Shown: piece after piece, positions 10,167-58,416 of the stretch | Layout of the letters: each line of letters starts with the position of its first letter | How positions within the stretch are numbered: position 1 is the first letter of the stretch | Origin: Amyelois transitella | Taxonomy: Eukaryota; Arthropoda; Insecta; Lepidoptera; Pyralidae | Direction of reading: 5' to 3' | Assembly: GCF_032362555.1 (NCBI RefSeq) | Contig: NC_083518.1 | Location: forward strand, 2,058,501-2,122,500 | DNA length: 64,000 bases | Program-made: the position numbers and the translations under genes | The notes under the pieces: model-generated | Seen by the model: only the letters and a program-made list of their open reading frames with translations | What the model was told of the DNA's origin: nothing | The model's database searches: none

Positions 10167-10174
10167 TATAAAAG
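10167..10174 (+). promoter_or_regulatory. TATA box of gene A
   Basis: TATAAAAG at 10167-10174 puts transcription start near 10197-10200. The ATG of exon 1 is at 10351, giving a 5' UTR of about 150 nt. That UTR contains a 27-codon upstream ORF (10260-10343) and a possible 86-bp intron (10245-10330, GT..AG) whose removal would delete most of that uORF, start codon included. Three other genes in the window have a TATA box about 95-105 bp before the ATG; gene B has about 145 bp. Confidence 0.6.
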
Positions 10175-10350
10175 ATGGCCGCGTTGTATTTTACCGAACC
10201 ATTACTTTGTCGGTTGGCCGTTGGAGTATCAAAGTACACAAACAGGTATTAGTTTAACTATGGAGTGTTGTGTTTGTGTAGTGTACGTGTTGTGTAGTGC
10301 TGTGATTAAAGGCTTGTTTTCTTTTGACAGAGCCAGCCGTTGACGTCAGG

Positions 10351-10368
10351 ATGCGGTGGATTAGTTTG
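10351..10368 (+). CDS. Gene A, first coding exon (signal peptide start)
   Basis: ATG CGG TGG ATT AGT TTG followed by GTAACG encodes MRWISL and ends in phase 0. Joined to the acceptor at 21119 it gives MRWISLILACAVLSTTFA followed by EPDP, a textbook signal peptide with cleavage after Ala18. Exon 2 has no plausible start of its own. This is the best upstream match: it sits behind a TATA box, it is in phase, and it follows the short-first-exon pattern of the other four genes. The donor (GTAACG) is not strong and the implied intron is 10.75 kb, so a cDNA would be needed to prove the join. Confidence 0.62.
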
Positions 10369-10408
10369 GTAACGTCTTTTTGTTGATTAATATCACTTAA
10401 TATATTTT

Positions 10409-10601
10409 ATCATTAAGCCAAATAGCTGAACGTGGCCATTCGGTCTTTTCAAGATTGTTGGCCCTGTCTATCCCGCAAGGGATATAGACGTGACTGTATT
10501 TATGTATGTTTTACTTAAAATTAAGTGCTGTTTGGTTCCCGGCACTAATGAATGGGACCACTCTACCACTTTCCCGTGGCTGTCGTATAAGGCGACTAAG
10601 G
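10409..10601 (+). mobile_element. Two family A fragments in tandem, 40 bp inside gene A intron 1
   Basis: A tail half (10409-10509) is followed by a head fragment (10527-10601). The first begins only 40 nt after the gene A donor site. Confidence 0.65.
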
Positions 10602-10744
10602 CATGCTACGGCAGGCAACCATTAAACCTTTGCACAAAACCTTCATGCTATATTCAGCAGACGAGCTTTTAAGCCTACAGTGCTTTTAGAAAAATTTGAT
10701 AATTCATTATGGATGATTATCTCACATTTTATAATCTTAATTTT

Positions 10745-10948
10745 ACATACATATTATCACGTCTATATCCCTTGCGCGGTTCAGCTGTTTGGCTTAATGA
10801 TAGAATTAAGATTTAAATAGTCACAGGTTGCTAGCACATAGCCTAAAAAAAGAACCCCAAGTATATAAGTTTATCCCTTAGTCGCCTTTTACGACAGCCT
10901 CCTCGACGGTCCTACTCTTTTTCCTATTGGTGCCGGAAAACATATGGC
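10745..10948 (-). mobile_element. SINE-like family A with internal deletion
   Basis: Reverse copy missing the stretch between CTTGCG and GGTTCAGCTG. Confidence 0.7.
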
Positions 10949-10973
10949 AAACCAGAATTTAAAACATAACAAA

Positions 10974-11062
10974 ACATATGATCACGTCTATATCACTTGC
11001 GGGTCAGACAGAGCCAACAGTCATCAAAAGACTGAAAGGCCGCTTTCAGCTGCTTGACTAAA
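10974..11062 (-). mobile_element. SINE-like family A, 3' fragment
   Basis: Reverse tail half with a CATATGATCACGTCTATATC start. Confidence 0.65.
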
Positions 11063-11733
11063 GAATTTATTTTTCATAATATCATTTTGTGTTACAATTT
11101 TATAAGTAGATGACTCATAGTTTCTTGAAATTGGAATCAGTTGTCATTATTTTAAAAGCATGACCCTTACTATCTAGGCCTTCACATCACGTACTTATAT
11201 TTTGTAACTTTATATAACCAAATTCAAAGCTTGCCGAAGCTAGAACTATTTTGAGTGCAATCATGATGGTTATCAAAAACATAACAATTATCTTACATTC
11301 AAATTTCATTGTTGCAAAATAGTGTTTGATGTAAGGTAAGTAATTAAATCTGAATCTTTCATTTCTGTAAGTGAAGTGAAGGCAACTTTGACTTTAAAGC
11401 TAAGATCCCAAGTCTAATTAAAAATCTAGGTCATGTTATTTTGGAACGTAATGTGTTCCTTATTAGCTTTAATGATCATTATATTGTAAATTATCCATAC
11501 TGATGACATTCTGAATTACTGATTTCATAGAGACATACTGATTAACACTGACATACTAATTTCATACTGACAGTTTATAATAATAAGACAAAAAAAATAT
11601 ATTTTATTTTGTTAATTGTACTTGATTGTAAAATCTTCTGAAATTATTCGATAGATGTATGTGTGCTGAACGAGATAAATGTGATATTTCATACAAAAAT
11701 GCCTATAAGGGTGCTAAGCCGCCATTAATGATT

Positions 11734-11946
11734 GGCCTCTGTGGCGCAGCGTCCCGGGTTCGAATCCCGGCCAGGGCATGATGAGAAAATAACTTTTTCT
11801 GATTGGACTGGGTCTTGGATGTTTATCTATATAAGTATTTATTATAAAAATATAGTATCGTTGAGTTAGTATCTCGTAACACAAGTCTCGAACTTACTTC
11901 CAGGCTAACTCAATCAGTAATTTGTCCCGTATATATTTATTTATTT
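11734..11946 (+). mobile_element. tRNA-derived SINE with deleted promoter interval
   Basis: The head GGCCTCTGTGGCGCAGC joins directly to GTCCCGGGTTCGAATCCCGG. The roughly 27 nt between A-box and B-box regions seen in the copy at 13525 are missing. The 3' body is otherwise intact. Confidence 0.75.
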
Positions 11947-12369
11947 AACATTCAAAATAGGTCTTCTTACAGAATCCATAGATTTCGACTTGTTTTGATC
12001 CATTATCTTTATTTACCGCTTTGGCTTCTCAAAAAAGATAATCAAGCCTAGAAAACGGCAAAACTCTTAATTGGTGTAAAAAATATTTAATTTTAATACA
12101 TAAATGTACTTTCTAACGCATTGCATAACTTTATATTAGACTTTTAATGCGCATCACTTAACTCCGCGACCATTAACTTACGGAACATAGAATATTCATT
12201 AAATTTATAAAGATATACCACGTAATCAAGTTTTCACACTTATTTATTTATTTAAAACTTTAGTTCACAAAAAATGTACAAAAAGCGTTTGTGTCGCATA
12301 TTGTTCGAGTGTAACCTCGGGATTTGTTGAAGACATACTTCTTTCTTCATCTGTCTTCAGCGGACCTAC

Positions 12370-12613
12370 ACATACATACATATAATTACATCTTTATCCC
12401 TTACGGGTAGACAGAGCCAAAAGTCTCGTCGAGACTGAAAGGCCACATTCAGCTGTATGACTTAAAGATGGAAATGAGATTCAAATAGTGATGGGTTACT
12501 AGCCCATCGCCTAAAAGAAGCAACCCAACTTCTCAGCCTATCCCTTAGTCGAATTTAACGACATCAAGTTAAGGAAATGGAGTGGTCTAATACTAAAGTG
12601 CGGGAACTACACC
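12370..12613 (-). mobile_element. SINE-like family A, near full length
   Basis: Reverse copy with a TACATACAT tail; the head is diverged. Confidence 0.7.
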
Positions 12614-12719
12614 AGCCAATCTTCTCCTCTTTATTTGTTTCCAGTGATACACTTAGTCGCGAAAGTTTAGGTTTCGGAGCCGAGCTTACATCAGATGTCT
12701 TTGGGGGAAACTCATACTC

Positions 12720-12818
12720 ATACATACATACATAATTACGTCTATATCCCTTGCGGGGTAAACAGAGCCTACAGTCTTGAAAAGGCTGATAGGCCACGTT
12801 CAGCTGTTTGGCTTTATT
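12720..12818 (-). mobile_element. SINE-like family A, 3' half
   Basis: Reverse tail to GCTGTTTGGCTTTA. Confidence 0.68.
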
Positions 12819-13012
12819 ACTCATACTCATACATATGTACACATTATTCCTTTGTACCTATGCATTGTAGAAAGAGTTTTAGCTTTTTACTTAATAAAGC
12901 TAAAAGTACAATAGTGCCAGAAATAAGATAACTGGGAAAACCCCTAGATGATTGATAGCGAACAAAAAAAAAAATTTCAAAGTAACAAATATTACAGAAG
13001 TTCATTCATTCA

Positions 13013-13256
13013 TTTATATAGTCACGTCTATATCCTTTGCGGGGTAGAGAGAGCCTTGAAGAATCCGGTAGACCACGTTCAGCTGTTTGGCTTTATGATA
13101 GAATTGAGATTCAAATAGTGACAGGTTGCTAGCCCATCGCCTAAAAAAAGAATCCCAAGCTTATAAGCCTATCCCTTAGTCGCCTCTTACGACATCCATG
13201 GGAAATGAAATGGAGAGGTCCCGTTCTTTTTTATTGATGCCGGTAACCACACGGCA
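13013..13256 (-). mobile_element. SINE-like family A, full length
   Basis: Reverse copy from the ATAGTCACGTCTATATCC tail to the ACCACACGGC head. Confidence 0.75.
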
Positions 13257-13524
13257 TACAGGCATTACAGAAGTTAACGAACACAATTTCATTTGGCTCA
13301 AGAAATTCGTTGCAATTTGACAGTCATCATGACGGTTGTGTACATCATGAACAGAGGTCGTACCATCATTATAATGGACGATGTGACATAATGCGAAGCG
13401 GGTTTGTGGGTTACCGCATCTCGGTGGGAAATGAACGGGCATTTTCAAAAACTTTGTCAATGCCGAGATGACTAACTAATTTGTTGAGACTTTCACTGAT
13501 AAACATAAGTTAACTTACTTAGAC

Positions 13525-13762
13525 GGCCTCTGTGGCGCAGCGGTAGTGCGCTTGTCTGTGTCACCGGAGGTCCCGGGTTCGAATCCCGGTCAGGGCATGA
13601 TGAGAAAAGAACTTTTTCTGATTGGCTTGGGTCTTGGATGTACATAAGTATTTATTATATAATATAAGTATCGTTGAATAAGTATCTCGTAACACAAGTC
13701 TCGAACTTACTTCGCGGCTAACTCAATCTGTGTAATTTGTCCCGTATATATTTATTTATTAT
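13525..13762 (+). mobile_element. tRNA-derived SINE, full length
   Basis: The tRNA-like head carries an A-box-like TGGCGCAGCGG and B-box GGTTCGAATCC. The body GGGTCTTGGATGT ... TCGAACTTACTTCG follows, with an AT-rich tail. TTACTTAG at 13515-13522 and 13763-13770 is a possible 8-bp target duplication. The family is common in Lepidoptera. Confidence 0.8.
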
Positions 13763-13872
13763 TTACTTAGCAATAACACAGACATACCGCGGTATAAATG
13801 TGAGATTAGAAGTTTCAAATCCAATATAAGTTAGCTATAGCATTGAATTAATTACTTCTATGCTTATAACAT

Positions 13873-14116
13873 GCCGTGTGGTTCCCGGCCCCAACAGAAA
13901 AAGAACCGAACCACTACATCTCTTTCCCATGGATGTTGTAAAAGGCGACTATGATATAGGCTTATATAGTTGGTATTCTTCTTTTAGACTATGGGCTAGC
14001 AACCTGTCACAGTTTGAATCTCAATTCTATCATTAAGGCAAACAGCTGAACGTGGCCTATCAGTCTTTTCGAGACTGTTGACTCTGTCCACCCCGCAAGG
14101 GATATACATGTGATAA
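13873..14116 (+). mobile_element. SINE-like family A, full length
   Basis: Complete head and body; the tail is reduced to GTGATAATAAG. Confidence 0.75.
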
Positions 14117-14839
14117 TAAGTTTTATATATAACATTTTTTTTATAAAAAAGGCTGTGTAAATTAAGCGCAAGATTACATCGCTACTTACATGTATGTATG
14201 AGCTAATTTCGGAAAGTTGTGAACGGATTTGTTCCTGTTAAAATGTAGGAAAGAAGGTTTTCTGAAGAAGGTTTGTATGTATATAAATGCTACTCGTGTA
14301 AAGCCGGGGCGGATCGCAAATATAAACTAAAAGTGCTTTTTGTCACAAAACTGAACCCACCCTGAAAATAAAATCGATCGAACATCTCTGACGTAGTAAA
14401 TCAGCTCAAACCATAAACGTTTTCAAAATTATATTGCTGAATACATTTTTTCCAACCACTTCTATCAAATTCATCGTAAATTGTTACCAAGGATATAGAG
14501 TAATTTACACAGTAACTGAACGGCGATTTCTCAATAACTACAGACTAATCGATGTCAGATTGTTACTAGTATACTAAACTGTTACATAACAAAAACTAGC
14601 ATTATTCCGATAGAAACATATCGATAAACGGCGGGAACAAGGAAGTCTGTCTGTCTGTTTCTGTTGCAACTCCTGACCCTCGCTTTCTCTTAACACGATT
14701 CTTACTTTCATCTCGTTTACTTCAAACCTTTAGAGGTAATTCTTTGGTTATTCGATTTTTTTTATCGATTAGTTGCAAGATCATTTAATATAGCATACAT
14801 AAGTACATTATTATTTTAAATATGTACATTGATATAAAC

Positions 14840-21119: not shown

Positions 21120-23342
21120 ATACTCGCCTGTGCAGTGCTGTCAACGACATTTGCTGAACCGGACCCAAAGAAATATAAACCAGACACAGTAACGAAGAAC
21201 AAAAACTCAAACTCAAGTTTAACAGACGAAGAAAGAAAATTTTTAAGAGAAGTAGAAGCTAAATTTGGTGTTAAATCAGATGTATTGCCTGAAATAAAAA
21301 AAGTTAATGAAGAAAAGAATAAGACTGAAACAAAATCGGAACCGTCAATAAAACCACCATTTCCAGCTGTTATAGCTATAGAAATAGTCAATGATACAGA
21401 ATCAAAGCCAAAAAATGGGAAGCGAACAATCGACGCTAACCTTGGTTATGGATATAGGACCAATAACGGGTATACATACTCTTATTTGGGGCGCCCAGGT
21501 CAAGAGAAAGGCAAGTTTATGATATACCCATATTCACAAGAAGATATTCCGCCAGCGCGTCCTAATCAATATTCCCACCAATCTTCAGGATCCTACACTT
21601 CATCGTCTCCACAATCTCCTAATGTAGAAATTCAACCTTCAAAAGCGTATGAACTGGTTGAAATGAAAGATGAACCGCAGCCTTATCAGTACAACAGGCC
21701 AACTGAACAAAGACTTAATTATGATATAAAAGGACTCGTCACACCTCCAGCGTATACCCCTCAAAGTCATCAACAACCTATCCAGGCTCCACCAACTACC
21801 TTGTATACAACCTATAATGGTGAACGGCTCTCTGGCCTAAGCGGACAATTTCCAATGGTTATGCCAAATTACTTTGTAGATCCATCACAATTGCTAAAGT
21901 ATCCTCAGTTCCAAAGCGCAGGATTATCACAGGATCATTTACGCTCTTCGGGTTCACCAGTACAGCAAAAGGTTGTGCCTGTCTTAGTACTTAGAATCCC
22001 AAGTTCATATATCAAAAATCCATCAGCTGAGCTATATGCTAATCTACCGCAAAATTACCCCTTATCTCAATATTTAAATCAAGTTAATTTACAAGAATTA
22101 GTTAACAATTATTTCAAGAAAATTGGTTACTCTTTTGCACCTCAAGTTATGGCATATCAGAGACCGCTTTTAGCAGATGCTGTATCAACGCCAGTGACGC
22201 AATATGAACCACAACATTATTCTGCTCCATACATTAATCCATCATATACTCAATCAGATTATTCTGGGGTTCAGTATTCTGCTGTAAAACCAGTAATGGC
22301 TAGGTATCCTTTGAGTTATACTCGCCCTCAATACTATATTCCTTCCGCTCAGACGGCTTATCAACAGCCTGCTCAACAATATCAATATACTTACCAATAC
22401 GTACCTAATACGTCAAGTCAACAGACGTATTATATTCAACCACAATCACAACAGACTGAGCAAGAGCATCAAACTGAACAAGTTTCTCAGCAAACACATG
22501 TTCAAGATACAGCTAATCAAGTAGAATATGTGTCTCAACAAGAAGTTCATGTCACTACTGCGGCTCCCTCACTCGAATACGGGACACCTGAAACGCCAAC
22601 TGAATCCGAACATAATTCTGTTGAATCTGTAGCTCCTCAATACGAGGCAGCACATGCTTCTACCCAAGAATATGGAACACCAAAAGCCGAAAATGTGGAA
22701 TACGCTTCAAAGGAACCAGCAGTTGAATATACTGGCCCTACGAGGGTAAACATACCAGTTGCGTACACTACTCAGGGTCATCACGATACTATTGCTGTAT
22801 ATCCTTCGCAGGCTGGTCATATTCCCCGTCATTATAGCTCACAAGCCGATCTTGGAGCACAATATTATTATCAAGGCCAATCACCTGCAAGTCATCAAAA
22901 TAGCAACTTAGTATTAACTGAAAACTACCCAAGTAAAGACCACACTATTGCTACAGTTTTACCTTACAGTTATAAACAAGCAGCGAAATCTAATGCGGGC
23001 GCTGTCCAATCGGTTAGTTACGTTACACCAATGCCATTTTCTTCTAAATATCAGTCGCAATACAGAATAATGGTGCCACAGATGGTTTTTAAGAATCCTA
23101 GTAGTGAGAAGGTAGCTTATGTTAATTCTCACTCGCTACCGTATAGCCAAAATAGTCAGGAACATAATCCTGAGGCAGAATATACTGTGCCATCTCACTA
23201 CAGTCCTCCTGTTGGAAGACAAAGACCGCCTTCTTACCCTAAAAATTATCATTCTACTCCGAAAAGAATGGTTAAACCTCAAGATAAATCAGATAACGTG
23301 TCGCCGAAGAAACAAGTAGAAAGATCTGAAAAGGAGGCGTAA
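21120..23342 (+). CDS. Gene A main exon: secreted Tyr/Gln/Pro-rich structural protein, likely cuticular
   Basis: This exon encodes residues 7-746 of a 746-aa protein. The acceptor is AATTTCAG at 21112-21119 and the stop is TAA at 23340-23342. After the signal peptide comes a charged Lys/Glu segment (about residues 19-95). A long low-complexity body follows, rich in Tyr, Gln, Pro and Ser (YxxPQ, QQPAQQYQYTYQYVP near residue 420, and several YGTP units around 490-525). Residues about 289-346 form a less repetitive, partly hydrophobic island (VVPVLVLRIPSSYI, then YLNQVNLQELVNNYFKKIGY) that may be the folded part. There is no Rebers-Riddiford chitin-binding consensus, no Tweedle-type domain and no cysteine pattern. 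Composition and context point to a cuticle or other extracellular-matrix protein of the loosely defined hypothetical cuticular class. The ordinary, AT-rich codon use differs from genes C and D. Confidence 0.8.
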   Translation: MLACAVLSTTFAEPDPKKYKPDTVTKNKNSNSSLTDEERKFLREVEAKFGVKSDVLPEIKKVNEEKNKTETKSEPSIKPPFPAVIAIEIVNDTESKPKNGKRTIDANLGYGYRTNNGYTYSYLGRPGQEKGKFMIYPYSQEDIPPARPNQYSHQSSGSYTSSSPQSPNVEIQPSKAYELVEMKDEPQPYQYNRPTEQRLNYDIKGLVTPPAYTPQSHQQPIQAPPTTLYTTYNGERLSGLSGQFPMVMPNYFVDPSQLLKYPQFQSAGLSQDHLRSSGSPVQQKVVPVLVLRIPSSYIKNPSAELYANLPQNYPLSQYLNQVNLQELVNNYFKKIGYSFAPQVMAYQRPLLADAVSTPVTQYEPQHYSAPYINPSYTQSDYSGVQYSAVKPVMARYPLSYTRPQYYIPSAQTAYQQPAQQYQYTYQYVPNTSSQQTYYIQPQSQQTEQEHQTEQVSQQTHVQDTANQVEYVSQQEVHVTTAAPSLEYGTPETPTESEHNSVESVAPQYEAAHASTQEYGTPKAENVEYASKEPAVEYTGPTRVNIPVAYTTQGHHDTIAVYPSQAGHIPRHYSSQADLGAQYYYQGQSPASHQNSNLVLTENYPSKDHTIATVLPYSYKQAAKSNAGAVQSVSYVTPMPFSSKYQSQYRIMVPQMVFKNPSSEKVAYVNSHSLPYSQNSQEHNPEAEYTVPSHYSPPVGRQRPPSYPKNYHSTPKRMVKPQDKSDNVSPKKQVERSEKEA

Positions 23343-31292: not shown

Positions 31293-31300
31293 TATATAAA
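31293..31300 (+). promoter_or_regulatory. TATA box of gene B
   Basis: TATATAAA at 31293-31300 predicts a start near 31323-31328. The resulting 5' UTR of about 120 nt carries an ATG-TGA start-stop element at 31409-31414, 30 nt before the main ATG. Confidence 0.62.
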
Positions 31301-31444: not shown

Positions 31445-31465
31445 ATGAAGGCCGTAATGCAAGCG
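31445..31465 (+). CDS. Gene B, first coding exon (signal peptide start)
   Basis: ATG AAG GCC GTA ATG CAA GCG followed by the good donor GTGAGT encodes MKAVMQA and ends in phase 0. Spliced to 39019 it gives MKAVMQAIRLLVVIQIIRNV followed by RC-QDG, a hydrophobic signal peptide with likely cleavage after Cys22. The TATA box 145 bp upstream, the matching phase and the same architecture as genes C-E support the join across 7.55 kb. Confidence 0.72.
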
Positions 31466-36359: not shown

Positions 36360-36860
36360 GCACTAGCTTTTACCTGCAGCTTCGTCCGCGCGTATTTAGC
36401 GCCACCTACAAAAGAATGAATCTGACGGCCTCTGTGGCGCAGCGGTAGTGCGCTTGTCTGTGTCACCGGAGGTCCCGGGTTCGAATCCCGGCCAGGGCAT
36501 GATGAGAAACGAACTTTCTCTGATTGGCCTGGGTCTTGGATGTTTATCTATACACGTATTTATTATTATTATAAAATTATTATAAAATATCATTATAGTA
36601 TCATTGAGTTAGTATCTCGTAACACAAGTTTCGAACTTACTTCGAGGCTAACTCAATCTGTGTAATTTGTCCCTACCTATACTTATACTTACAACTACCT
36701 ATACTTTTTAGTGCGATGAAAGGTACCCTATGTCCTTTTCTGTACACCGCACCATATGTTTGCTGAATTTCATGTAAATCTGTTCAGTGGTCAACTGTTA
36801 AAACGTACAAATAAACAAACTCACTTTCGTTTGTGTAATATTAGTCTGGAAGTTTGGCTA
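36360..36860. mobile_element. Retroelement split by a tRNA-derived SINE
   Basis: The CACTAGCTTTTACCTGCAGC part (36361-36425) and the GTGCGATGAAAGGTACC part (about 36710-36860) flank a full tRNA-SINE at 36427-36675 (A-box-like TGGCGCAGCGG, B-box GGTTCGAATCC). Confidence 0.65.
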
Positions 36861-39018: not shown

Positions 39019-42000
39019 ATACGGTTACTAGTAGTCATACAAATCATCAGAAATGTCCGTTGTCAAGATGGATTCAGCGATCGAGACTTACTGCGTCTCC
39101 AACAGATGGCTTCCAACGATGGCCAGGTTGAAACCATCACTAGTTACAGTACCAACATCATTCAGAGGGATCCGAATAGTCAGTCGATTAGTTCGGTGAG
39201 TGTACAATACCATATGACAGATCCTGAGAACAATGAAGAATACAACAGAGCAGATCGAACAAGAACAAGAAAAGTGTACCGAATTAAAAATCCCTTTGAA
39301 CATCAAAATCATCAGGATGATCATCACGAGACCAACACTGCTGAAACACAAGACAGCGGCACCGCAGCTAGTAACCAGTATGCAGCTATGCAATACTCCC
39401 TGCCACCCGAAGAGTTCCTGCAGCAAATGAGAGCGGAGAATCAATACTATCAGCAACAACAAGTATCTACTCAAGCCCCTCATCTTAGCTACACAGCCAC
39501 CCCACAACCCCAATACCAATATTCCACAATATCCCCAAATTATGACGACAACAACCATCAGTCAAACCAAATACCCCAACTTGAACCGAAAATGTCTGTT
39601 GGTCAAAATTATTTAACTAATACAAACTCGTATCAATACGGTGGTGGTAATTCTTATAATTTTGATAGTATTCAAAGTACACCAGCGTCTGTAACGCCAC
39701 TTATATCAACGCCTCTTCCAAATAATCAATATGTGGGTACACAGTCAAACTCTTACGTTTCTAGTTCTTCGCCGATTTATATATCTAGTCCACCTAATTT
39801 GCAATCGTATGTTTCATCTCCATTATCAAATATTCAAGATGTATCTCCAGATTACAGCAATAGAGTGAGCTCAACTATAGGAAGCAACTCCCTTAATTAC
39901 GAAAATGAGTTCCAAAAAAAGATGATGATAGATCATTATGATAATTCCGCTCATGGAGTAAGATACCCGGTAAACATGCAACAATACCAAAATGATTATC
40001 CATCCTCTACTCCGGTTCCTTCTTCGTCTCCTTATTCAGATCAAAGTCATGATTCGTGGCGAAATCAACAAAATGGAATTAACAGTGTATCGAAATCTCT
40101 TCAAGAATTATCACTTACTCAGTATCAAAATTATCCATATAATAATAATCAACAAGATTTGAGATCAGATGCTAATGATAACTCGAATAGTGACAACCAC
40201 CGGATGGGAAATGTACCAGCTGCTAACAATTTATATCTAAATTATGCTCAACCAGAATATCAATCGGATAACTTGAAGGGGCGAATAAAAAGCTTTGAAG
40301 AAAATGGTCAAAATAATAACTATTACTCACATGGTGATTATGGATGGAAACTTCAAAATAAAAAGGCTTTAGTAAGTACAGAAAATTATCCGCAAGGAAG
40401 CTTTGGAAGATATCAATACTCTAATCAGCCTTCAGCTTTACAAAGTTCACCAGGTATGGCGGTAAGTCAGATGAATTTCCATATGGATACCGGCAGGCCG
40501 CAGAACTATGACCAAGTATCAAAGTCAAGCGCCGATACCATAGATACCCAAGATTTTGCTAGAGCAGCAGCAAAAGCACAAGAAAGACAGCAACAACAAC
40601 AACAGCAACAACAACAGCAACAACTATACGGGAATAACTATCCGACAAACTACAATATACCGAATCCAACACCTGGACCTAATTATGGCATCAATGACAA
40701 GCAAAGAAATAGATTCAATGAAAACACAAATTCTAATAACTATCCATACAATGGCAATTTGCAAACAGATTTAATAACAGCTTCACCTTATTATTATACA
40801 AACTCAAAAGATAGCAGTTATGATCAGAAATCCAAATTACCATTTGACCATGACAAAGCTTTGAAAAACATTGTTCCCATAGATGTTTCAAATGTAGTTG
40901 GAAACTCAGAATCACAAGTAAGAGGGTTAGGAGGCCAAGATAATAATAACAGATTTAATGTACAAAACTCAGGCAAAAATCAACTTGAAGAAAATTTGAA
41001 GCAATATTACAGATCGGTCACAGATGCTTACTATAAAGATAAAAACTCTATTTATGGATTCAATATAAAAACAAAGCCAGAAGACATATTAAACAGCGAA
41101 AGCAAGCAACTTGACTCAAATTTACCATTTTATGCAAAGCAGCAACAAATTCAAGATTCTCTGTATAATCTACAAGACAAACGTTACTTTGAAGGTTCGA
41201 GTGCATCTCCAACTTTTGTTTCATCACCAAATAGTCCATATCAAGATAATTTCCAATCATCAGCAAACATTCAGCAACAAGGTTTACAGCGACCACAAAA
41301 CACCATGCCTAGTGATATCGCGAATATATTGAAACTTAATGACGTACCATATCGTTTTTCCTCCAGTTTATCAGAAGGAGATACGTTGCGGTTTAATAAC
41401 AATTTTGATACAGCAGTGATACCTACTCCTTTGCCAACTAGAATTAACCAGAATGTTGGAAGCCACCAAATTGATGTCTCGATTCTTAACAAACTGTTGA
41501 ATAAACAAACTCCACTTAATCTTAACAGGCCCGATATTGACCCTCAGGCCAGTGGATTAATATCGAATATAAACGGATTTAAAGTTGCTAACCCCTTCAA
41601 TGTAGATCTCAAATTAGTTGCAGATATGTTAAAAGGAAAACCAGCAATTGATGATAGTCATTTATTACCTTTGGGTAACCAATTCAGTAAGACCATCCCT
41701 TTGAAACTAGATTTATCGCAATTGCAACAATTACTTTTGAAAAATGATAATACTGGTAGTTATGCATCAATAAACGATGGTTTAAGTGCCTTTGCTAATC
41801 CATATTTGGATTTTTATAATCCTGGGCGACCTTACCAAGGTGTAAAGTATTCTCGTAGTCAAGAAGAAGAAGAAAGTGAGAGTATTATACCAATAGCAGA
41901 TGCTTCCAACAACCATCCTATTGGTGCAGTTATAGAACAACTGGATGACATATCAAATGAACGCGAAGCAAGTACTGGATCAGATGTCACAGCTCAAGAC

Positions 42001-42399
42001 GATGAAGGCTTGCCGAATAAATTCGAAAAACGCCCTAAGCATGCCATTATTTCAGGACACAGGATAGCTGATAGACACCGACATCCAAACTCTTTGCAAG
42101 GTCAGCGTTCATATCAAAGAAAATATCCAAAGTTACATTCAGATGAACCCTATCCTTTGTTAAAACCGCCTCCGCCTCAGACAAAAAGTCGGGAATCTCG
42201 TAATAACTTTGAAAAGAAAAACACTAAGCGACGTCGTTATAAGCCGAAGCTAGTTCGAGTTATGAAAACTGAACCTTTATATGAAGCTGGTACCAATACT
42301 GAAGAAGAAGACGAAGCTTCCGTTCCGACGTTACTACGGCCACCGCCGCCTATCGCTGATGCTAAAATGGATAGACTTGATGATGAGGAAAATACGTAA
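39019..42399 (+). CDS. Gene B main exon: large secreted Asn/Gln/Ser/Tyr-rich protein
   Basis: This exon encodes residues 8-1133 of a 1133-aa protein, acceptor TTTCAG at 39013-39018, stop TAA at 42397-42399. An N-terminal stretch (about 23-90) is mixed in composition. A very long Asn/Gln/Ser/Tyr/Pro-rich body follows, with a polyglutamine run near residues 530-545 encoded by mixed CAA/CAG. Residues about 820-920 form an ordered-looking island with amphipathic Leu repeats (ILNKLLNK, LKLVADMLKGK, LDLSQLQQLLLK). The tail (about 1010-1133) is basic then acidic, with Arg/Lys clusters and two RPPPP/KPPPP motifs. I see no known domain. It is probably an extracellular structural protein, cuticular by analogy with its neighbours. 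The stop codon lies inside a GTAAG donor-like sequence, so a longer isoform is possible. Confidence 0.82.
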   Translation: MRLLVVIQIIRNVRCQDGFSDRDLLRLQQMASNDGQVETITSYSTNIIQRDPNSQSISSVSVQYHMTDPENNEEYNRADRTRTRKVYRIKNPFEHQNHQDDHHETNTAETQDSGTAASNQYAAMQYSLPPEEFLQQMRAENQYYQQQQVSTQAPHLSYTATPQPQYQYSTISPNYDDNNHQSNQIPQLEPKMSVGQNYLTNTNSYQYGGGNSYNFDSIQSTPASVTPLISTPLPNNQYVGTQSNSYVSSSSPIYISSPPNLQSYVSSPLSNIQDVSPDYSNRVSSTIGSNSLNYENEFQKKMMIDHYDNSAHGVRYPVNMQQYQNDYPSSTPVPSSSPYSDQSHDSWRNQQNGINSVSKSLQELSLTQYQNYPYNNNQQDLRSDANDNSNSDNHRMGNVPAANNLYLNYAQPEYQSDNLKGRIKSFEENGQNNNYYSHGDYGWKLQNKKALVSTENYPQGSFGRYQYSNQPSALQSSPGMAVSQMNFHMDTGRPQNYDQVSKSSADTIDTQDFARAAAKAQERQQQQQQQQQQQQLYGNNYPTNYNIPNPTPGPNYGINDKQRNRFNENTNSNNYPYNGNLQTDLITASPYYYTNSKDSSYDQKSKLPFDHDKALKNIVPIDVSNVVGNSESQVRGLGGQDNNNRFNVQNSGKNQLEENLKQYYRSVTDAYYKDKNSIYGFNIKTKPEDILNSESKQLDSNLPFYAKQQQIQDSLYNLQDKRYFEGSSASPTFVSSPNSPYQDNFQSSANIQQQGLQRPQNTMPSDIANILKLNDVPYRFSSSLSEGDTLRFNNNFDTAVIPTPLPTRINQNVGSHQIDVSILNKLLNKQTPLNLNRPDIDPQASGLISNINGFKVANPFNVDLKLVADMLKGKPAIDDSHLLPLGNQFSKTIPLKLDLSQLQQLLLKNDNTGSYASINDGLSAFANPYLDFYNPGRPYQGVKYSRSQEEEESESIIPIADASNNHPIGAVIEQLDDISNEREASTGSDVTAQDDEGLPNKFEKRPKHAIISGHRIADRHRHPNSLQGQRSYQRKYPKLHSDEPYPLLKPPPPQTKSRESRNNFEKKNTKRRRYKPKLVRVMKTEPLYEAGTNTEEEDEASVPTLLRPPPPIADAKMDRLDDEENT

Positions 42400-43239: not shown

Positions 43240-43776
43240 GTGGAGATACTGTGTCGAGTGATTCTCTGATATGAACAAAAGTAAGTCAAACAATATACTT
43301 ACTTTTTGAGTGAGTTTATTAAGTGTTTTCCTGAAAATGGCTGATAAGTTACTTTTCTGTTCAGAGGTAGCAAACATTTTCTAGGTTTCGAAATTAAAAA
43401 ATGAGAGAGTGAGGTAAATTACATAGATGTGTGTGTCCGATGTAAACTACATTCGATGTTAAATTTAAATAATGTTTTTAGGTAATACATAATATTAGTA
43501 ATGTTTTACACTCGTTGTAGTTTCAGTTTTTTTTTCATTCATTTTTCAGATCAAAACAAAGTTATAAAACGTGGTAATGCCTTCATCTGCGAAACTGAAA
43601 ATTCTAATTTCGAATCTCAGACTTTGTTTACGGAAGAACTTTTGCCAAAGAAAACTATATTATCAACTGATTCTCAGGAAACTTTATGTAACACACAAAA
43701 AGAACCCCCCGACTCTCAGCCTTATGATGATTATTTACCCTATAGTAAAGAAGAGACTACTCAATTTTACCTATAA
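43240..43776 (+). CDS. Candidate orphan exon pair downstream of gene B (hypothetical)
   Basis: A possible short exon at 43240-43280 lies between TATTACGCAG and AAAA|GTAAGT. A possible terminal exon at 43550-43776 follows a strong pyrimidine tract ending TTTTTCAG and stops with TAA at 43774-43776. Read together from the ATG at 43273 they encode about 78 aa, MNKNQNKVIKRGNAFICETE onward: hydrophilic and acidic with two cysteines, and no signal peptide. AATAAA follows near 43809. The 41-nt exon is also in phase with the donor that overlaps the gene B stop, but that frame meets TGA after six codons. So this is either an independent small gene, an alternative 3' end of gene B, or chance. The uninterrupted, protein-like frame of the last exon is the main argument that it is real. 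Confidence 0.35.
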
Positions 43777-43829
43777 CAATATCATTGTTTATGACTGTTT
43801 GCCGTTATAATAAATGAGTAAAATAATAA

Positions 43830-46147: not shown

Positions 46148-46154
46148 TATAAAT
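46148..46154 (+). promoter_or_regulatory. TATA box of gene C
   Basis: TATAAAT at 46148-46154, 96 bp before the ATG. Predicted start is near 46178, giving a 5' UTR of about 65 nt. Confidence 0.65.
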
Positions 46155-46243: not shown

Positions 46244-47399
46244 ATGGCTACTTTTGTAAGTATCGATAAAAAGTTCATCGACAATATGACATAGTATATT
46301 GACATCTTTATTGAAAAGTGTGTTACACAGTCAAAGTACACCGAAAATAAGGGTTAAAATTTTCAGTTTAAGAAGCAAATTGTAACTGGGTCGGTTTTTG
46401 TTTCAGACAAAATTGGCATTCTTAGCCATCCTAGTGAGCAGCAGTTACGGGGGAGTGTTGCACGGACAAAGCCATCATGATGTCATCGAGCACCACGACC
46501 ACGTAGACCATGTCGACCATCATACATCAGGCCTTTCAGCTCCTGGTGTCTCCAGTTACGGCGGCTCCAGTGCTTTGGCACACTCCAGTTTTTCACCTAG
46601 CAGCTTCCCGGCTGGATCTCTTCCCTCGGCTACTTATAGCGGCGCTGGATTCGTCGGTGGAGCTGCCTCTCACGGGCTCGCTGGCGCGTCACTTCACTCA
46701 CACTCTTTTGATGGATCAGCGTTAACTGGAGCGGCGTTAACCGGACCCGCATTAGCTGGAGGAGCAATTGGTGGCGTTGTAGCTGGAGGCGCGATCGCCG
46801 GTGGACTTGGAGCAGGATTGGCTGCACCTTTGCCTGGCGCAGGATTAATTGGAGCGGCCGGAGCGCTCGGTGCTGCCGGCGTAGCGGCTCCAGGCGGCGA
46901 AGCCCCCCCACCAGGACCCAAAGCCCCCGTCATCAACGAAATTCACGGCCTGGCCAACGGCAACGGAGCTCCGACTCGGTACCGCGTCCGTGAAGAACGC
47001 TACAACGTTTACAGACAGGTCACTCACAGAGTGCCACAGCCCGTGCCTGTTCCAGTCCCTCAGCCCGTACAAGTGCCTGTACCCCAGCCTTACCCCGTCC
47101 AAGTACCAGTCGTAAGAAACGTCCCAGTACCAGTTGTCAAGATTCAACACGTGAAAGTTGACAAGCCCGTGCCTTACCCGGTAGAGAAGATTGTGAAAGT
47201 GCCCGTGGAGAAGGTCGTACATGTTCCCGTTGAGCACCCAGTACCCGTTGAGAAAGTCGTCGAAGTCCCTGTTGTGAAGTACGTGAAGGTACCTGTGCCA
47301 GTTGTGAAGACTTACCCGGTTCCTCATGTGAAGACGGTCCACCACAAGGTGCATGAACATCACCATTCCCACCACGGCCACGGCTGGCACGGCTGGTAA
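46244..47399 (+). CDS. Gene C: vajk-like cuticular protein, His-rich ends
   Basis: The coding sequence joins 46244-46255 (ATG GCT ACT TTT, donor GTAAGT) to 46407-47399 across a 151-bp phase-0 intron; 334 aa. The signal peptide is MATFTKLAFLAILVSSSYGG, with cleavage near residue 19. A His-rich N-terminus (HHDVIEHHDHVDHVDHH) follows, then a Gly/Ala/Ser-rich hydrophobic segment to about residue 165, a Pro/Gly linker and RYRVREERYNVYRQV (about 197-211). The VPVPVPQPVQVPVPQPYPV-type repeat domain extends to about 315, ending in a His-rich tail closed by HGWHGW. The valine-proline domain with alternating lysines is shared with genes D and E and matches my recollection of insect vajk cuticular proteins. 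Codons are strongly G/C-ending, suggesting high expression. The role is inferred: a secreted cuticle component, with histidines possibly serving in metal binding or quinone cross-linking. Confidence 0.88.
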
Positions 47400-50595: not shown

Positions 50596-50605
50596 AGTAC
50601 TGTCC

Positions 50606-51771: not shown

Positions 51772-51779
51772 TATAAATA
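51772..51779 (+). promoter_or_regulatory. TATA box of gene D
   Basis: TATAAATA at 51772-51779, 104 bp before the ATG. An initiator-like ATCAATT lies at about 51797-51803, at the expected distance. Confidence 0.66.
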
Positions 51780-51870: not shown

Positions 51871-51875
51871 AAGCC

Positions 51876-52925
51876 ATGACGTTCGTTGTAAGTTCAATAA
51901 TAATGACATGATAGAATTAGGTCGAATTTTGCATGAAACTAAACTGAATTTGTTTGTTACAGATTAGGGTAGTATTTGCGACAGCTCTAGTGTATACTGT
52001 CAATGCTGGAGTGTTGACTGGCCATCATCATGACGATACCTACGTGTCATCAGCATTGAGCGCCCCTTCAGCCTCATACGGCACTCCTGCTACTTCTTAC
52101 GGACCTCCGGCTATTTCTGGGGCTGCACATTTGGATTCCCACGTGGATGTTCACTCTGATGGAGGATTGGTTGATGATGCTTTAGCCCATGGGCCAATTA
52201 GCCATACACATGCCGATGTTGGATCTTACCCTGATGCAGGATTATCTGCTGTCGGACCCAGTGGTTACACCGAAGGCTCCCTCAACCTACCCACCAGCAT
52301 TGGAGGTGGTGCGCCTCTCGCTCCAGCTCTACCCGCTGGATTACCATCAGGATCAGGTCTTGCCGGACCCCTTCCAGCTACCCTCCCAGCCCTCGGCTCT
52401 TACGCGCCCGCCTTCCAAGGAGGACTTAACGCCGCAACCGCTGTCGGCCCCCCAAGAGTGATCGGAACTACCGTCAGCGTAGGCAGACCCATCGCCTCAG
52501 CCTCGAGGTACGAACTCCAATCCGTTATCCAGGATGTAGTCCGTCGCGTCCCTGTGGAAGTGACCAGACACGTTCAAGTCGCCGTGCCCCACGCCGTCCC
52601 GGTACCAGTCCGCCAAGAGGTCAAGGTGCCTGTGCCACAGCCGTACCCAGTGCACGTCGATGTGGTGAAACACGTGCCTTACCCGGTCTACAAGACGCAG
52701 CACGTCGAAGTCGAAAGGCCAGTACCAGTTGAGGTTGTCAAACATGTTCCCGTTGAAATCATCAGGAAAGTGCCAGTGCCCGTTGATAAGCCATACGAAG
52801 TGATCAAGAAGATTCATGTCCCAATTGAGAAGCACGTTCATGTCCCATATGCAGTATGGAAGCCGTATCCTCTGCACATTGTCAAGCACGTCACCCACTA
52901 CAAGAAGAAGAGTTGCTGCTGGTGA
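51876..52925 (+). CDS. Gene D: vajk-like cuticular protein ending in Cys-Cys-Trp
   Basis: The coding sequence joins 51876-51887 (ATG ACG TTC GTT, donor GTAAGT) to 51963-52925 across a 75-bp phase-0 intron; 324 aa. The signal peptide is MTFVIRVVFATALVYTVNA, and the mature protein begins GVLTGHHHDD, close to GVLHGQSHHD of gene C. A Ser/Ala/Gly/Pro-rich region to about residue 170 follows. From about 185 the domain of VPVEV, VPVPQPYPV, VPYPVYK and VPVPVDKPY units runs almost to the end, finishing KKKSCCW. It is the closest relative of gene C by domain order, leader block and intron placement. Codons are G/C-ending. Adjacent C-terminal cysteines are unusual for a cuticle protein and could allow disulfide cross-linking (inference). 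Confidence 0.88.
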
Positions 52926-52967
52926 ACTTAGAAGAATGTCGCGGTTGTGCCAAATAGTCAATAGACG

Positions 52968-53049: not shown

Positions 53050-53794
53050 AATCTGATGATTGAATAATTCGATTGTCCTTTTTTTTCTTCGAAATTCATT
53101 TTCCATACGAGATATAAATTTTTTTTTTGGTCATACTATGTACCAATTTCTGTCTTTATACTAAACATTTTTTTAACAAATAATTCACTGAGCGAAATTA
53201 ATACTTGGCGAAATGTTAGGTAATCTTTTTTAACTTTAATCTAGGGCAATTACATTTTAGTGAATCTCTAAGCTATATTTTCATTTTTTTCTGTTTATTT
53301 GGTTAAACTAACAATTTTACACTCAATTATTAGTAAAGTACATACAATATTTAAGTTAATACAAAATTAACAACGTCAACCACAGTTTACAATAAAAATA
53401 GTTGAGATCTTACACCATCACCTTACATTGTAATTTTTGTTTCAATTCTAAAGTTTGGATAAAAGTATACTTATATTCTGTAATAAAATAAATATATGGC
53501 GAATTATCATTATATTGCGAATAGCTGAAAATAAAATCAGTAAAAAACTTCTAGATTAGGGAGAAACCACAATAAAAGTTGTAGTGCCTACGTTTATAAA
53601 AATGGCGTGTATTTCAGGTGTTTACGTTAGACAATATTATAGTTAACAAAAAAATGTTGGAATAAACTTATGCTATTTTTATACATAACTATGTATTGCA
53701 AAAGATCACATCAGGTATTTCCAAGAAGCAATAAACACAAATACATGTCATATTGAGTTGCGTAATTGTATCGTTGACCAAACCTACATTGAAT

Positions 53795-54005
53795 CCTACT
53801 ACTATTATAAAGGCGAAAGTTTGTATGGATGTATGGATGTTTGTTACTCTTTCACGCAAAAACTACTGAACCGATTACCATGTTTTGTATGTAGGTAGCT
53901 GAAGACCCAGAATAACACATAGGCTACTTTTTATCCCAGAGTTCCCGCGGGATTGATAGGGTTTCCATGCGGACGAAGTCGCGGGCGGCCTCTAGTATGT
54001 TTATA
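53795..54005. mobile_element. Retroelement tail (about 210 bp)
   Basis: ACTACTATTATAAAGGCGAA to GGACGAAGTCGCGGGCGGCC, typical boundaries of a lepidopteran non-LTR or non-autonomous family. Confidence 0.6.
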
Positions 54006-54154
54006 ATATAATTAATTGCGTCTTTAAAGTAAAAATTTATATATATATTTTATTCCCCTTTCGGTATACAAACTTAGTTCTTTACAAAAATATGAGAAAC
54101 GAGAATACGCAGTTAATGATAAAACGACTGCAAAATAAACTTAATAGTTACCGT

Positions 54155-54500
54155 TCAGTTAGAAGGTATCCTATAACACAAGTCTCGAACTTATTTGGGG
54201 TCAGCTGAATATTTTTTTATTTGTCTTGTTAATATTTAATTTATTTTACATACTAATGATAATATTTTGTGTCAAGAGAGCCGGAAGTCGAATTACAGGT
54301 TCAAATCCCAACCGGCCATGTACCTTTTTTCGAAATTATGTACATTAGTTTAAATACTAACCGATATTTTTACGTTGAGGGAAAGCATAGTGAGGAAATC
54401 TGCACATTCAGGCAACTGGATATAAACATGATCAAATCCAATACGTTAGGTTTACCAGCGAAGGTTGCGGAGGACGGAGGAGTTTTGATTTAAATTAAGA
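54155..54500 (+). mobile_element. tRNA-SINE fragments, two families
   Basis: 54155-54245 resembles the 3' part of the SINE at 13525 (ATAACACAAGTCTCGAACTT). From 54262 a tRNA-like B box (AGGTTCAAATCCCAACCGG) leads into a body with GGAAAGCATAGTGAGGAAAT, a known lepidopteran SINE motif. Confidence 0.55.
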
Positions 54501-54934
54501 ACACCCTGGCCATTATATTATGACATGTAAATTCAAAATAAGAGCTACTAATCAATCTCTTCTATCTCCAGTTGTGTCATGTATTAGCGAATGTAAGATT
54601 TTAGTACAAGAAATAAACTTACATACTCATGGCAATCTCTGTTTTTACTTATTATATTAAATATTCTCTTAAATATGATCTTTTCAAAGACGACGCTCTG
54701 CCACCTCAGACAATACCTAACTATTTCCTATATTGTAGTCTTAAAAAAAATCAACAGATTATGAAACAAATACAGTTAGCGACAGATGTCACAGTACCGT
54801 ATTAAAAAAAAAAAACAATAGATTGCAGGATTCGAAAATGGAAAGAAATACCTACTCATTGCTTCATAATGGTTGGCAAAGCCGGAGCAAAAGGATTGCA
54901 ATAATGTAAAGTCACGCTACAGTACCACGTAATA

Positions 54935-55097
54935 TTCATACCTATAGACATGCCTACATCCTTGGCGGGGTAGACAGAGCCAAAAAAATTTAAAGGAAAT
55001 TCAGATATATGTCAATGTCAGGATTTTTGTCTTTCCCTTAGTCGCCTTAGTCGCCGTACGGAGTGGTCCTATTATGAAGTGAACCGGGAACCAAATA
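54935..55097 (-). mobile_element. SINE-like family A, degraded
   Basis: Only the tail and head segments remain; TAGTCGCCT is duplicated in the middle. Confidence 0.55.
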
Positions 55098-55464
55098 ATT
55101 ACTGGACATGTATAAATACATAATTACCTAATTAAAAAGAAATTTTACATTATCAGTGCCTTATTACTTTTTTACGCAAAGACGAAGAACAGAACAAAAC
55201 AGATGAAATGAACGAATGCAGTATGCATTCGACGTTCGGTGATAAAATGCTTTAATTTTGCATAATCTGTGATTCGTGTTATAAATTAATGATATGATTC
55301 GATTAACTTGTCAATATTTACATTCATTATCAGTCATTGGGCGGATCCCGGGCCCCGAAACACTTCTGTAGCGAGAGCAACCGGGAAAACGCAGAGATGA
55401 GAGAGAGAGATTAATAGTCAATTAACAACAACGCATTAACTCCAAAACTACATATCCGAATAAA

Positions 55465-55503
55465 GGCCTCTTTCTGTTAATGTATTAAAAACAGAAAGAG
55501 GCC
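55465..55503. repeat. 14-bp perfect hairpin
   Basis: GGCCTCTTTCTGTT (55465-55478) and its exact complement (55490-55503) with an 11-nt loop. Confidence 0.7.
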
Positions 55504-56564
55504 ATTGGAGGACAGAGGAAAATTGAGGAGCATATGACGGTCGATGTTACTAGGTACAACAAATTTCTGGAGGTAGGGGATTGATTAAATGTGATCTTAT
55601 TACGCTGTGTAATCTACGATTCTGAGGCTGTAGGTACGCTTTTTTGTTGGTGAAATACCATCAGCTCATGGTCTTAACAAGAAAGATGAACTCTTTATTG
55701 CAGCAAGAAAAAAACTCAAAGTAACAAACTCTATATATCTACATAGATGATCTATACTAAGTATCCTTCTACTAAAGTATTGGCTAACTTAGCTTTGCCT
55801 TCAAGTTTTTATGACAATGTTGGCTCTGAACCCCATATATAAAAATGGATAAAGGTGCTTTTCTATGTATAGTTTTTCCAAAAAAATATTATTTATTACA
55901 TAAGAAATAAAAGTCCTTATATAACAATGATAAGTTGACCTTAATATTGTGAATTGTTTACCCTAGATAAGAGTTCAAAAGTTACATATATGCATAATTA
56001 AAATTAAGACGACGTTTACTCATAGGCTCGATAATTAGCATAAGCGGTCATAACGCATCAATGTAAAGCTGTTTATCCACTGCAAGGGAAATTTAAATAC
56101 TTAAATAGATTTTTTTAAGGTAACATTGTATTTCCTAAACCACGCTAAAATACTTAATTTTTAGTGTTAATTTAAACATTAAAATAACAACAAAGATAAT
56201 TAAATGTAACCAAAAAATAAAAAGGTTGAATGTTTGTTTGATATATTCAAATATAAACTTGATGATACACATAAAAAGGCTTAGGTGTTCAACACACTAT
56301 TTAGATAAATCCAATTCACTTTGTAGAAACACAGTATGTTTTATTTATAGACTAGAATAGACGTACGCACGCGATGAATATGCATATTCTTAAGTTGTAT
56401 TTTACTATATTAATGGCTAAGCTATGAATGATTCCATTCTCAATTTGCGGTTAATCAAATTAGGTGTAAATCGAAATCTTAAATAAAGTCCAGTGGATAT
56501 ACAGCCTTACACTTTACTCTAAGAGCTCGTTAATAGTCAGCGGATGTGCCCGAATTTACACATG

Positions 56565-56572
56565 TATATAAA
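56565..56572 (+). promoter_or_regulatory. TATA box of gene E
   Basis: TATATAAA at 56565-56572, 77 bp upstream of the ATG-proximal ACCGCC context. Predicted start is near 56596, with a 5' UTR of about 50 nt. Confidence 0.65.
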
Positions 56573-56648
56573 ATTGGTCGGCTCGTCTCATCCGTACAGA
56601 CGAAAGCAAGCGCTCCTGTCGCTTACTCGGCTGCACACGCCTACCGCC

Positions 56649-58283
56649 ATGTACTCTAAAGTAAGAAAAACATTAACAAAATAAATAAAATAGTACTTAT
56701 TTTAACCTATGAAGTACACGCAATGAAAACAAACCTTCCATAGTTTTTCCAAATTCCGTAAAGACGTTCCAAATTAATAAAATCCTTAACGATAATGAAC
56801 TGTTCGTCTTTTTCAGATTACTTTTACGTTTACAACCCTGCTATTTCTAGCAGCTAAAGGAAGTAGAGATGACCCTGGACCACAAACTTTTGCTGCGTCA
56901 CAACAGGAGCCACTCCCGTCATCACCGCCGCCACTTCTTCAGTCGTCACCACAGCACCAATTTGAAACAAGAGAAGTGATCGTTTACTTAACTCCGACAC
57001 AAATAAGAGCTCTGCAATCTGGACAAGGGGTCTTAGAACCAATATTGGAGCCCCAACCCCACCAAGAGGTACAACAACAAAATCCTAAGTTGACTCAACT
57101 GCCCCAAAATTATTACGATAACGACGAAGAATTCAGAAAAGAACTGGAAAGGCAAAAGGCATACATTGAAACGCACCCCAATATTGCCGAAGCAATTAGT
57201 GCTATTCAGAAGCAAAAGAATAATACGCCACCACCAGTGAGAGAACCGTCTCGGGAAGAGCCCCAAGAGGAATCTGCACAACTTCAATGGAATCCAGATA
57301 CGAACAATCAGTACTATGATCCTGCTACATTGCAAATTCCAACATCTGATAAACCTGAAAGTAATCAATATCAAATTCCTAGTACAGAAAAACCAGAGAG
57401 TAACAAATATTTAGCTCTCACGCCTGAAAACCAAGAAAACTTGCTCCCTAACAGCTATAATTACTTCAGTATTTATAATGAGAAGAAAGGTGATAATATT
57501 AACATAAAAATTATTCATCCTGCGCCTGCTGATAAACAAAGAAACGAATTAGAAGGAAAAAGCACTCAAAAACCTGCTCCTATAATTAAAAATTACAAGT
57601 TAATCCCATACGAATATCTAAACACGAAACAATCAGGTTGGAGGCCAATAATAGATCCAAATCAAAGCCGAGTAACACAAAAGAATACTGAACGCCAGTT
57701 GGGAGCTTTATTTACTCCTGCCCAACCCGAAGAGCAACAACAACTTCAGAAATCTGATCAGGCTGAAGAGTTACTCAGACTGAAATACGCATCCAAGTTT
57801 AATGATCATAAGCAGGCCATTGAAATTCAAAATCTTATTAGGCAACAAAAAGCTGAAGCTCAAATTGAAGCCATCGCTAAATCTCCTCCCGTAGAAGTGC
57901 ACCGGGAAGTTAGTGTAACAAAACACAAACCAGTCAATATTGTGAAACATGTTCAGGTGCCAGTTCCGCAGCCCTACATCGTTCGTGTTCCAGAACCTTT
58001 TGAAGTTAAGGTACCACAACCTTACCCTGTACCACTGGAAATCATAAGACCTGTGCCCGTGGAAGTTGTGAAGACTGAGAAAATAGAAGTTGAAAAACCA
58101 GTTCCATATGAAGTCCAGAAACACGTAGAGGTACCTGTCACTAAGAATGTCTACTTTAAAGTAGATAAACCCTTTATTGTTGAGAAGGTCGTTCCCGTTG
58201 AAGTAAGAAAAGAAATACCCGTCCACATTCCGATCCATAAACCTCAAAAACTTACAATCCTTAGACATATCTGGGAACATTAG
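56649..58283 (+). CDS. Gene E: vajk-like protein with long Gln/Pro-rich N-terminal region
   Basis: The coding sequence joins 56649-56660 (ATG TAC TCT AAA, donor GTAAGA, Kozak-like GCCATG) to 56817-58283 across a 156-bp phase-0 intron; 492 aa. The signal peptide is MYSKITFTFTTLLFLAAKG, cleaved near residue 19. The mature N-terminus is Pro/Ser/Gln-rich, followed by a longer Gln/Asn/Pro/Glu-rich region to about 320 and a short helical-looking stretch (about 320-357). The C-terminal valine-proline domain (about 358-488) has units VQVPVPQPY, VPEPFEVKVPQPYPV and VPVEVRKEIPVHIPIHKP. This is the same domain as genes C and D on a different N-terminus. Codon use is more AT-rich than in C and D, implying different expression or age. 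Confidence 0.87.
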
Positions 58284-58387
58284 AATATTTCTAGCATAAC
58301 AACGAAAGAAATAATTGATTTGTATGTAATTTAAGTGCAATATTGTAGACTGTGATGTTTTGTTATAAATTGTAAGGACTGAATTGT

Positions 58388-58395
58388 TGTAAATA
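58388..58395 (+). promoter_or_regulatory. TGTAAATA element in the gene E 3' UTR
   Basis: TGTAAATATTGATA here closely resembles TGTAAATATTGATA in the gene D 3' UTR at 52968, extending the shared sequence past the core octamer. Confidence 0.45.
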
Positions 58396-58410
58396 TTGAT
58401 ATTTGTTTGA

Positions 58411-58416
58411 AATAAA
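58411..58416 (+). terminator. Poly(A) signal of gene E
   Basis: AATAAA lies 127 nt after the stop, with a T/G-rich downstream element (TTGGTTGGTTTTGTT) about 15 nt later. This is a compact, canonical end. Confidence 0.72.

Follow-up and report, generated by a model that had tools for sequence, protein, structure and literature searches.

The stretch of the Amyelois transitella genome analysed in this study, a window of 64,000 nucleotides (nt) located at C14:2058501-2122500 of a 327 Mb genome in 33 contigs, contains five of at least nine clustered genes for low-complexity secreted proteins, which most likely encode structural proteins of the cuticle and carry the start that is standard for cuticle genes. 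Three of the five, termed C, D and E, would constitute a tandem set of the CPLCP/Vajk type inside this cluster, whereas the other two, A and B, and the neighbours outside the window appear unrelated by detectable sequence.

The anatomy of the five genes is reflected in features that are common to all of them (Table 1). Each is located on the forward strand and consists of a TATA box, a first coding exon of 12, 18 or 21 nt, an intron in phase 0 and a single large exon holding the rest of the protein, as had been described in an earlier note on this DNA and is borne out by our reading. The proposed junctions (10368/21120, 31465/39019, 46255/46407, 51887/51963 and 56660/56817, counted like all coordinates below from the start of the window) are found at the claimed places with the frame kept, as judged from sequence and translation. 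The acceptors of all large exons read TTTCAG or TTACAG and are followed by a hydrophobic stretch, and since exon 2 offers no methionine ahead of this core, an upstream coding exon is needed in every case. The introns span 10,751 and 7,553 nt in A and B and 151, 75 and 156 nt in C, D and E, with respective distances between TATA box and ATG of 184, 152, 96, 104 and 84 nt. Codon statistics trained on four of the genes place the fifth above background in five of five cases, although the score of B barely exceeds it (0.05 bits per codon compared to 0.27-0.31).

The kinship of C, D and E is manifested in their valine-proline (VP) domains. In pairwise alignments evaluated with 300 shuffles in three schemes, 4-residue block shuffles included, the pairs C/D, C/E and D/E show z values of 7.5 to 15.6, and in no scheme does any of the 300 shuffles reach the observed score. 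BLASTP without masking of low-complexity regions yields E values of 1e-22 for C-D, 1e-20 for C-E and 5e-20 for D-E, with C and D aligning across nearly their full length, and the motif VPQPYPV is invariant in the three proteins. An exact 13-mer, AGCGATTAGCTAA, is common to C and D at equal distance before the ATG, and among 200,000 randomly paired stretches of the window, about 8 contain such a run at a fixed offset. The closest other counterparts of this element within 133 kb differ from it by two mismatches. By BLAST on 600-nt upstream stretches its E value amounts to only 0.07, and the two copies were not brought into register when the leaders of C, D and E were aligned together. The protein alignments identify C, D and E as tandem paralogues with homology via the VP domain.

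The same domain suggests the family to which these three proteins belong. A genome search with the domain of D (E <= 0.001) identifies at least five places, three of which, D, E and C, fall in the window, with one each on C6 and C17. At both of the latter loci (L053, C6:4769506, and L054, C17:1497773), PQPYPV is recognized by eye, and the frame of L054 shows TFQ and then RATAILFLAAAATA, which is the same start pattern. Pairs of the type PV, VP and PY are found 20, 17 and 2 times in C, 11, 13 and 5 times in D and 11, 9 and 4 times in E, compared to 6, 4 and 5 in A and 2, 5 and 9 in B, both of which are much longer. Published descriptions characterize CPLCP proteins as rich in proline and bearing PV and PY pairs (PMC7497268, PMC10138643) and as carrying three conserved motifs with likeness to protist articulins (PMC8062583), name Vajk4 as a Drosophila CPLCP (PMC12105342) and give Vajk-4 as orthologue of mosquito CPLCP3 (PMC8667434). 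Like the CPLCP proteins of Anopheles, Bombyx and Antheraea and Vajk of Drosophila, C, D and E appear to be secreted, with a hydrophobic core by hydropathy and, as seen by eye, small residues where cleavage would be expected, and they are proline- and valine-rich and of low complexity. They differ in the few PY pairs of C and in the long Q/E/P-rich part that precedes the VP domain in E. Because their composition and the dense PV and PY pairs fit these descriptions, C, D and E are probably CPLCP/Vajk members, likened by description and not by alignment with named members. In Drosophila, the vajk genes lie in the Nimrod cluster. Our literature search found no text linking this cluster with vajk, nor one linking VPVPV with cuticular proteins.

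Within the VP domains, the prolines keep to one parity of residue positions (25:0 in C, 0:20 in D and 21:1 in E), whereas valine, isoleucine and leucine mostly occupy the opposite one (37:10, 40:8 and 40:7), and the self-match of the latter residues peaks at a spacing of 8 among lags of 1-16. A predicted model of the domain displays an extended beta conformation and is of low confidence, with a predicted local distance difference test (pLDDT) of 53.3 and a predicted template modelling score (pTM) of 0.23, hence a structural role is something that we infer. A search of solved structures with the D domain returned only four chance matches (E 0.44-0.48).

The shared start is an ordinary feature of the cuticle gene class, as illustrated by CPR genes, whose R&R domain (PF00379) was not matched at E <= 1 in the proteins of A to E (B given as its large exon) and is absent from the window among the matches listed in the genome search. 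In the 30 best of at least 150 R&R domain matches in this genome, eight loci, distributed over contigs C6, C18 and C19, show phase 0 and a TATA box located 62-87 nt ahead of the ATG, with a first exon that measures 12 nt in six of them and 9 nt in two. The search for these joins required a TATA box and a donor and neither a length nor a phase. Among 13 loci that have a core but no in-frame methionine, it obtained a join in 10, three of which (L013, L021 and L030) were discarded for the absence of a signal peptide or for stops in the join, while L003 was added by eye (9 nt, phase 0, also with an in-frame methionine near the core). No join was found for L004 and L007, both with a core and no methionine, or for L012, which has an in-frame methionine, and, apart from 12 loci described below, the remainder carry a doubtful core. 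This agrees with Anopheles gambiae, where one survey reports that the signal-peptide region is interrupted in 86% of the intron-containing CPR genes and that first coding exons range over 3-36 nt (median and mode 12), with a TATA box and initiator in 93% of the genes (PMC2259329). That an early intron interrupting the signal peptide is a well-known trait of insect cuticle genes, as stated in the earlier note, is supported by eight of 30 R&R loci and by that source. Since the layout is also present in R&R genes elsewhere, it carries little information on kinship, and we have consequently rejected it as proof of duplication.

The cluster itself continues past both edges of the window. A scan of about 233 kb including the window, in which an acceptor, a hydrophobic core and an open frame of 110 amino acids (aa) or more were required, returned 21 rows, nine of them in phase 0 and corresponding to A to E and to four further genes, X1, X2, X3 and Y1. 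The remaining 12 are all in phase 1 or 2 and comprise three alternative sites in these exons, six frames antisense to C, D and E and three other or transposon frames. The account of five co-oriented genes holds within the window, but their number was set by its edge, and Y1 is found on the reverse strand. The first exons with TATA box of X1, X2 and Y1 were picked by eye among computed candidates. From the first exon of X1 to that of Y1 the cluster spans about 112 kb, and its nearest named genes encode a HAT-repeat protein (CRNKL1/crooked-neck-like), about 32 kb upstream, and, about 31 kb downstream, a CFAP61-like protein, with other frames between. From residue 21 on, seven of the nine genes are devoid of cysteines, whereas B contains one and D two.

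Table 1. Features of genes A to E (positions in the window) and of the neighbouring genes of the cluster (positions on C14).
Feature	Position	Strand	Description	Basis
Gene A TATA box	10167..10173	+		TATA scan, sequence reading
Gene A putative first coding exon	10351..10368	+	MRWISL, 18 nt, weak donor GTAACG	no independent support
Gene A large exon	21120..23342	+	740 aa + stop, S/P/Q/Y-rich, mature part without cysteine	
Gene B TATA box	31293..31299	+		TATA scan
Gene B first coding exon	31445..31465	+	MKAVMQA, 21 nt, strong donor GTGAGT	
Gene B large exon	39019..42399	+	1126 aa + stop, S/N/Q-rich	
Gene C TATA box	46148..46154	+		TATA scan
Gene C 13-mer AGCGATTAGCTAA	46226..46238	+	ATG distance equal to that in D	
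Gene C first coding exon	46244..46255	+	MATF, 12 nt	
Gene C large exon	46407..47399	+	330 aa + stop	
Gene C valine-proline domain	46980..47396	+		
Gene D TATA box	51772..51778	+		TATA scan
Gene D 13-mer AGCGATTAGCTAA	51858..51870	+		
Gene D first coding exon	51876..51887	+	MTFV, 12 nt	
Gene D large exon	51963..52925	+	320 aa + stop	
Gene D valine-proline domain	52506..52922	+		
Gene E TATA box	56565..56573	+	two overlapping matches	TATA scan
Gene E first coding exon	56649..56660	+	MYSK, 12 nt	
Gene E large exon	56817..58283	+	488 aa + stop	
Gene E valine-proline domain	57870..58280	+		
X1	2,014,624	+	first exon MKLT, 12 nt, donor 6.9; S/G-rich	
X2	2,028,064	+	first exon MAKILL, 18 nt, donor 5.0, one upstream ATG; S/P/Q/Y-rich	
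X3	2,054,207	+	P/S/A/Q/Y-rich	
Y1	2,124,074	-	first exon MKYH, 12 nt, donor 2.5; H/G/E-rich	

The described kinship does not extend to A and B, which, as had been noted before, are without the VP domain of C to E. By BLAST, neither of them significantly matches C, D or E, nor do they match one another (best E 0.21, none at E <= 0.05). A genome search with B at E <= 0.001 returns B and nothing else, and in BLAST comparisons within the set of nine at E <= 0.05, X1, X2, X3 and Y1 each remain without a partner. A single family of A to E was thus rejected, with homology of the mature proteins confined to C-D, C-E and D-E. It is nevertheless conceivable, if quite improbable, that tandem duplication of a single ancestor gave rise to all five or even all nine genes, A, B and the neighbours having since diverged too far to be recognized and the layout persisting as a relic. 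Such an origin would account for the adjacency of the genes, the shared phase-0 position, the location of eight of the nine on the same strand and for weak alignment scores over shuffles in A-B (z 2.5-3.1), A-C (2.1-2.8), B-E (2.3-2.7), X3-A (3.3) and B-Y1 (3.6). However, these scores, which for A-B, A-C and B-E we read as shared composition, were drawn uncorrected from many pairs of compositionally similar proteins, BLASTP at E <= 0.05 connects only C, D and E among the nine, and the layout is uninformative for the reason given above. The proposal of the earlier note that the arrangement implies tandem duplication or strong shared constraint consequently stands in two parts, duplication for C, D and E and the constraint of a gene class for the set, and is not supported for a duplication of all five. 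On the basis of detectable sequence, A, B and the neighbours would have only gene class and place in common with the tandem set.

The predicted first exons differ in their firmness. When phase-0 candidates of the type ATG..GT upstream of each acceptor are ranked by approximate donor weights, the claimed donor comes first of 41 in C, second of 116 in B and of 32 in E, third of 47 in D and 37th of 212 in A. The first ATG downstream of the TATA box is used in C, D and E, with one upstream ATG each in A and B, and our promoter scan detected a suitably spaced initiator-like match in D and E and none for A, B and C. Combinations of TATA box and mini-exon are not rare, with 74 on the forward and 20 on the reverse strand at a donor score >= -0.2. 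The five joins had also been held to yield convincing signal peptides, but this quality does not discriminate, as 444 of 445 possible ATG..GT joins give a signal-peptide-like core in a simple hydropathy test. Since the hydrophobic core resides in exon 2, the argument is nearly powerless, and we have discarded it as proof of the mini-exons.

The uncertainty is most pronounced in gene A, where there is an appreciable, though still the smaller, chance that the model is misdrawn, that the exon at 10351-10368 belongs nowhere or elsewhere and that the gene starts from another exon, which would be compatible with our general interpretation. Besides its low-ranking donor and the upstream ATG in the leader, an alternative start at 5138-5155 (MISKYN followed by GTAAGT), with TATA box, initiator match and donor, is equally plausible. 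For the exon as drawn speak the consensus TATA box at 10167 and the good-looking signal peptide that results from joining MRWISL to ILACAVLSTTFA, a property shared by nearly any join. A possible acceptor in the 5' untranslated region (10329-10330) could take out the upstream ATG, and the leader contains no donor scoring above 1 to pair with it. A and X3 illustrate how fragile a gene model becomes when its first exon is tiny.

Several observations weigh against the assignment of the cluster to structural cuticle proteins with a tandem CPLCP/Vajk set. The gene models derive from DNA sequence, and no Pfam or NCBIfam family reached its cut-off in any of A to E, the matches obtained lying far below it. 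Masked BLASTP retains only D-E (1e-6), with C-D at an E of 0.72 and C-E gone, and there are only two PY pairs in C. The parity overlaps in part with that of controls, as in B windows with at least eight prolines attain a proline parity of 1.0, while in D the N-terminal part attains a V/I/L parity of 0.79, at the level of the VP domain in C, and the structure model of that domain is poor (pLDDT 53.3). To this come the weak first exon of A (donor rank 37/212), the first exon of X3, which was not found in the first-exon search, and the 22 of 30 R&R loci that are without the layout or uninformative, including 12 in which the exon with the domain leaves no space for a signal peptide and another 10 without usable model. 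Finally, the cuticle role of A and B is deduced from composition, secretion signal and neighbourhood only.

The last point bears on the question of whether the cluster includes secreted genes of non-cuticular function (silk, chorion, salivary or peritrophic) with the same early-intron layout, which we regard as rather unlikely and which would leave the assignment of C, D and E intact. It would be consistent with the low-complexity S/Q/N/Y/G-rich character of A, B, X1 and X2 and with the lack of known domains in A, B and X1, there being no Pfam match at E <= 1 in X1, X3 and Y1 (X2 was outside the scan). Conversely, C, D and E match the CPLCP description and adjoin A, B, X1 and X2, and seven of the nine genes lack cysteines from residue 21 on, although such points do not localize A or B. 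Together with X1, X2 and X3, both resemble lepidopteran cuticle proteins of the CPH/CPG type in their signal peptide, their low complexity and, where scanned (A, B, X1 and X3), the absence of a known domain. They differ in that the motifs AAPA and AAPV are found in none of A to E, and their location in the cuticle is putative.

Further elements were observed in the window and its flanks. Its 15 long frames comprise the five genes, five frames antisense to them and five others, of which 20215 and 31160 were outside the domain scan, and in the frames at 4534, 8359 and 33953 and seven shorter ones no family reached its cut-off. A possible small gene of 78 aa resides between B and C (43271-43776, +), where ATGAACAAAA, followed by GTAAGT, would be joined to 43550 in phase 1. 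It would have a 10-nt first coding exon, shows no evident signal peptide, is followed by AATAAA at 43809 and has no Pfam match in its second-exon frame. Two tRNA-His calls (13526-13597 and 36428-36499, +) each stand at the head of a repeat of about 200 bp, the copies being 82% alike and partly present also at 11751, and are similar to short interspersed elements (SINE-like) and probably not tRNA genes. A repeat of about 105 bp (e.g. 10403-10510) occurs in about 30 copies on both strands, one of which begins about 35 nt downstream of the gene A donor, and a 162-bp unit is repeated in two copies at 62947-63268. In the flanks, long frames on the reverse strand resemble, by eye, a mariner-type transposase (L046:5637-6821), a non-long-terminal-repeat (non-LTR) reverse transcriptase (L044:1-1116) and a copia-type polyprotein (L035:1-3333).

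Collectively, our analysis tells apart two things, a gene layout that is class-wide and a true tandem family formed by C, D and E. We infer that the cluster genes are spliced and expressed as predicted and that their products reach the cuticle. Epidermal cells would transcribe them in bursts around the moult, and the proteins would be secreted co-translationally, lose their signal peptide and enter the cuticle, where the VP domain of C, D and E may serve as an extended structural element of beta-like character, its prolines and valines falling on opposite parities over about 120 residues. In a bolder proposal, which we consider unlikely, the nine genes would make up one regulatory neighbourhood of gathered unrelated secreted proteins, mostly on one strand and made a set by position and not by ancestry, and the domain of C, D and E would be a register-locked strand of valine and proline, whose parity was kept through duplication with one proline of 67 off. 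If true, the two-residue parity of valine and proline would provide a simple rule by which a cuticle fibre is built. What is mildly interesting is that unrelated members are clustered at this locus, which, with nine defined genes, offers a place to test the clustering of unrelated cuticle-type genes.

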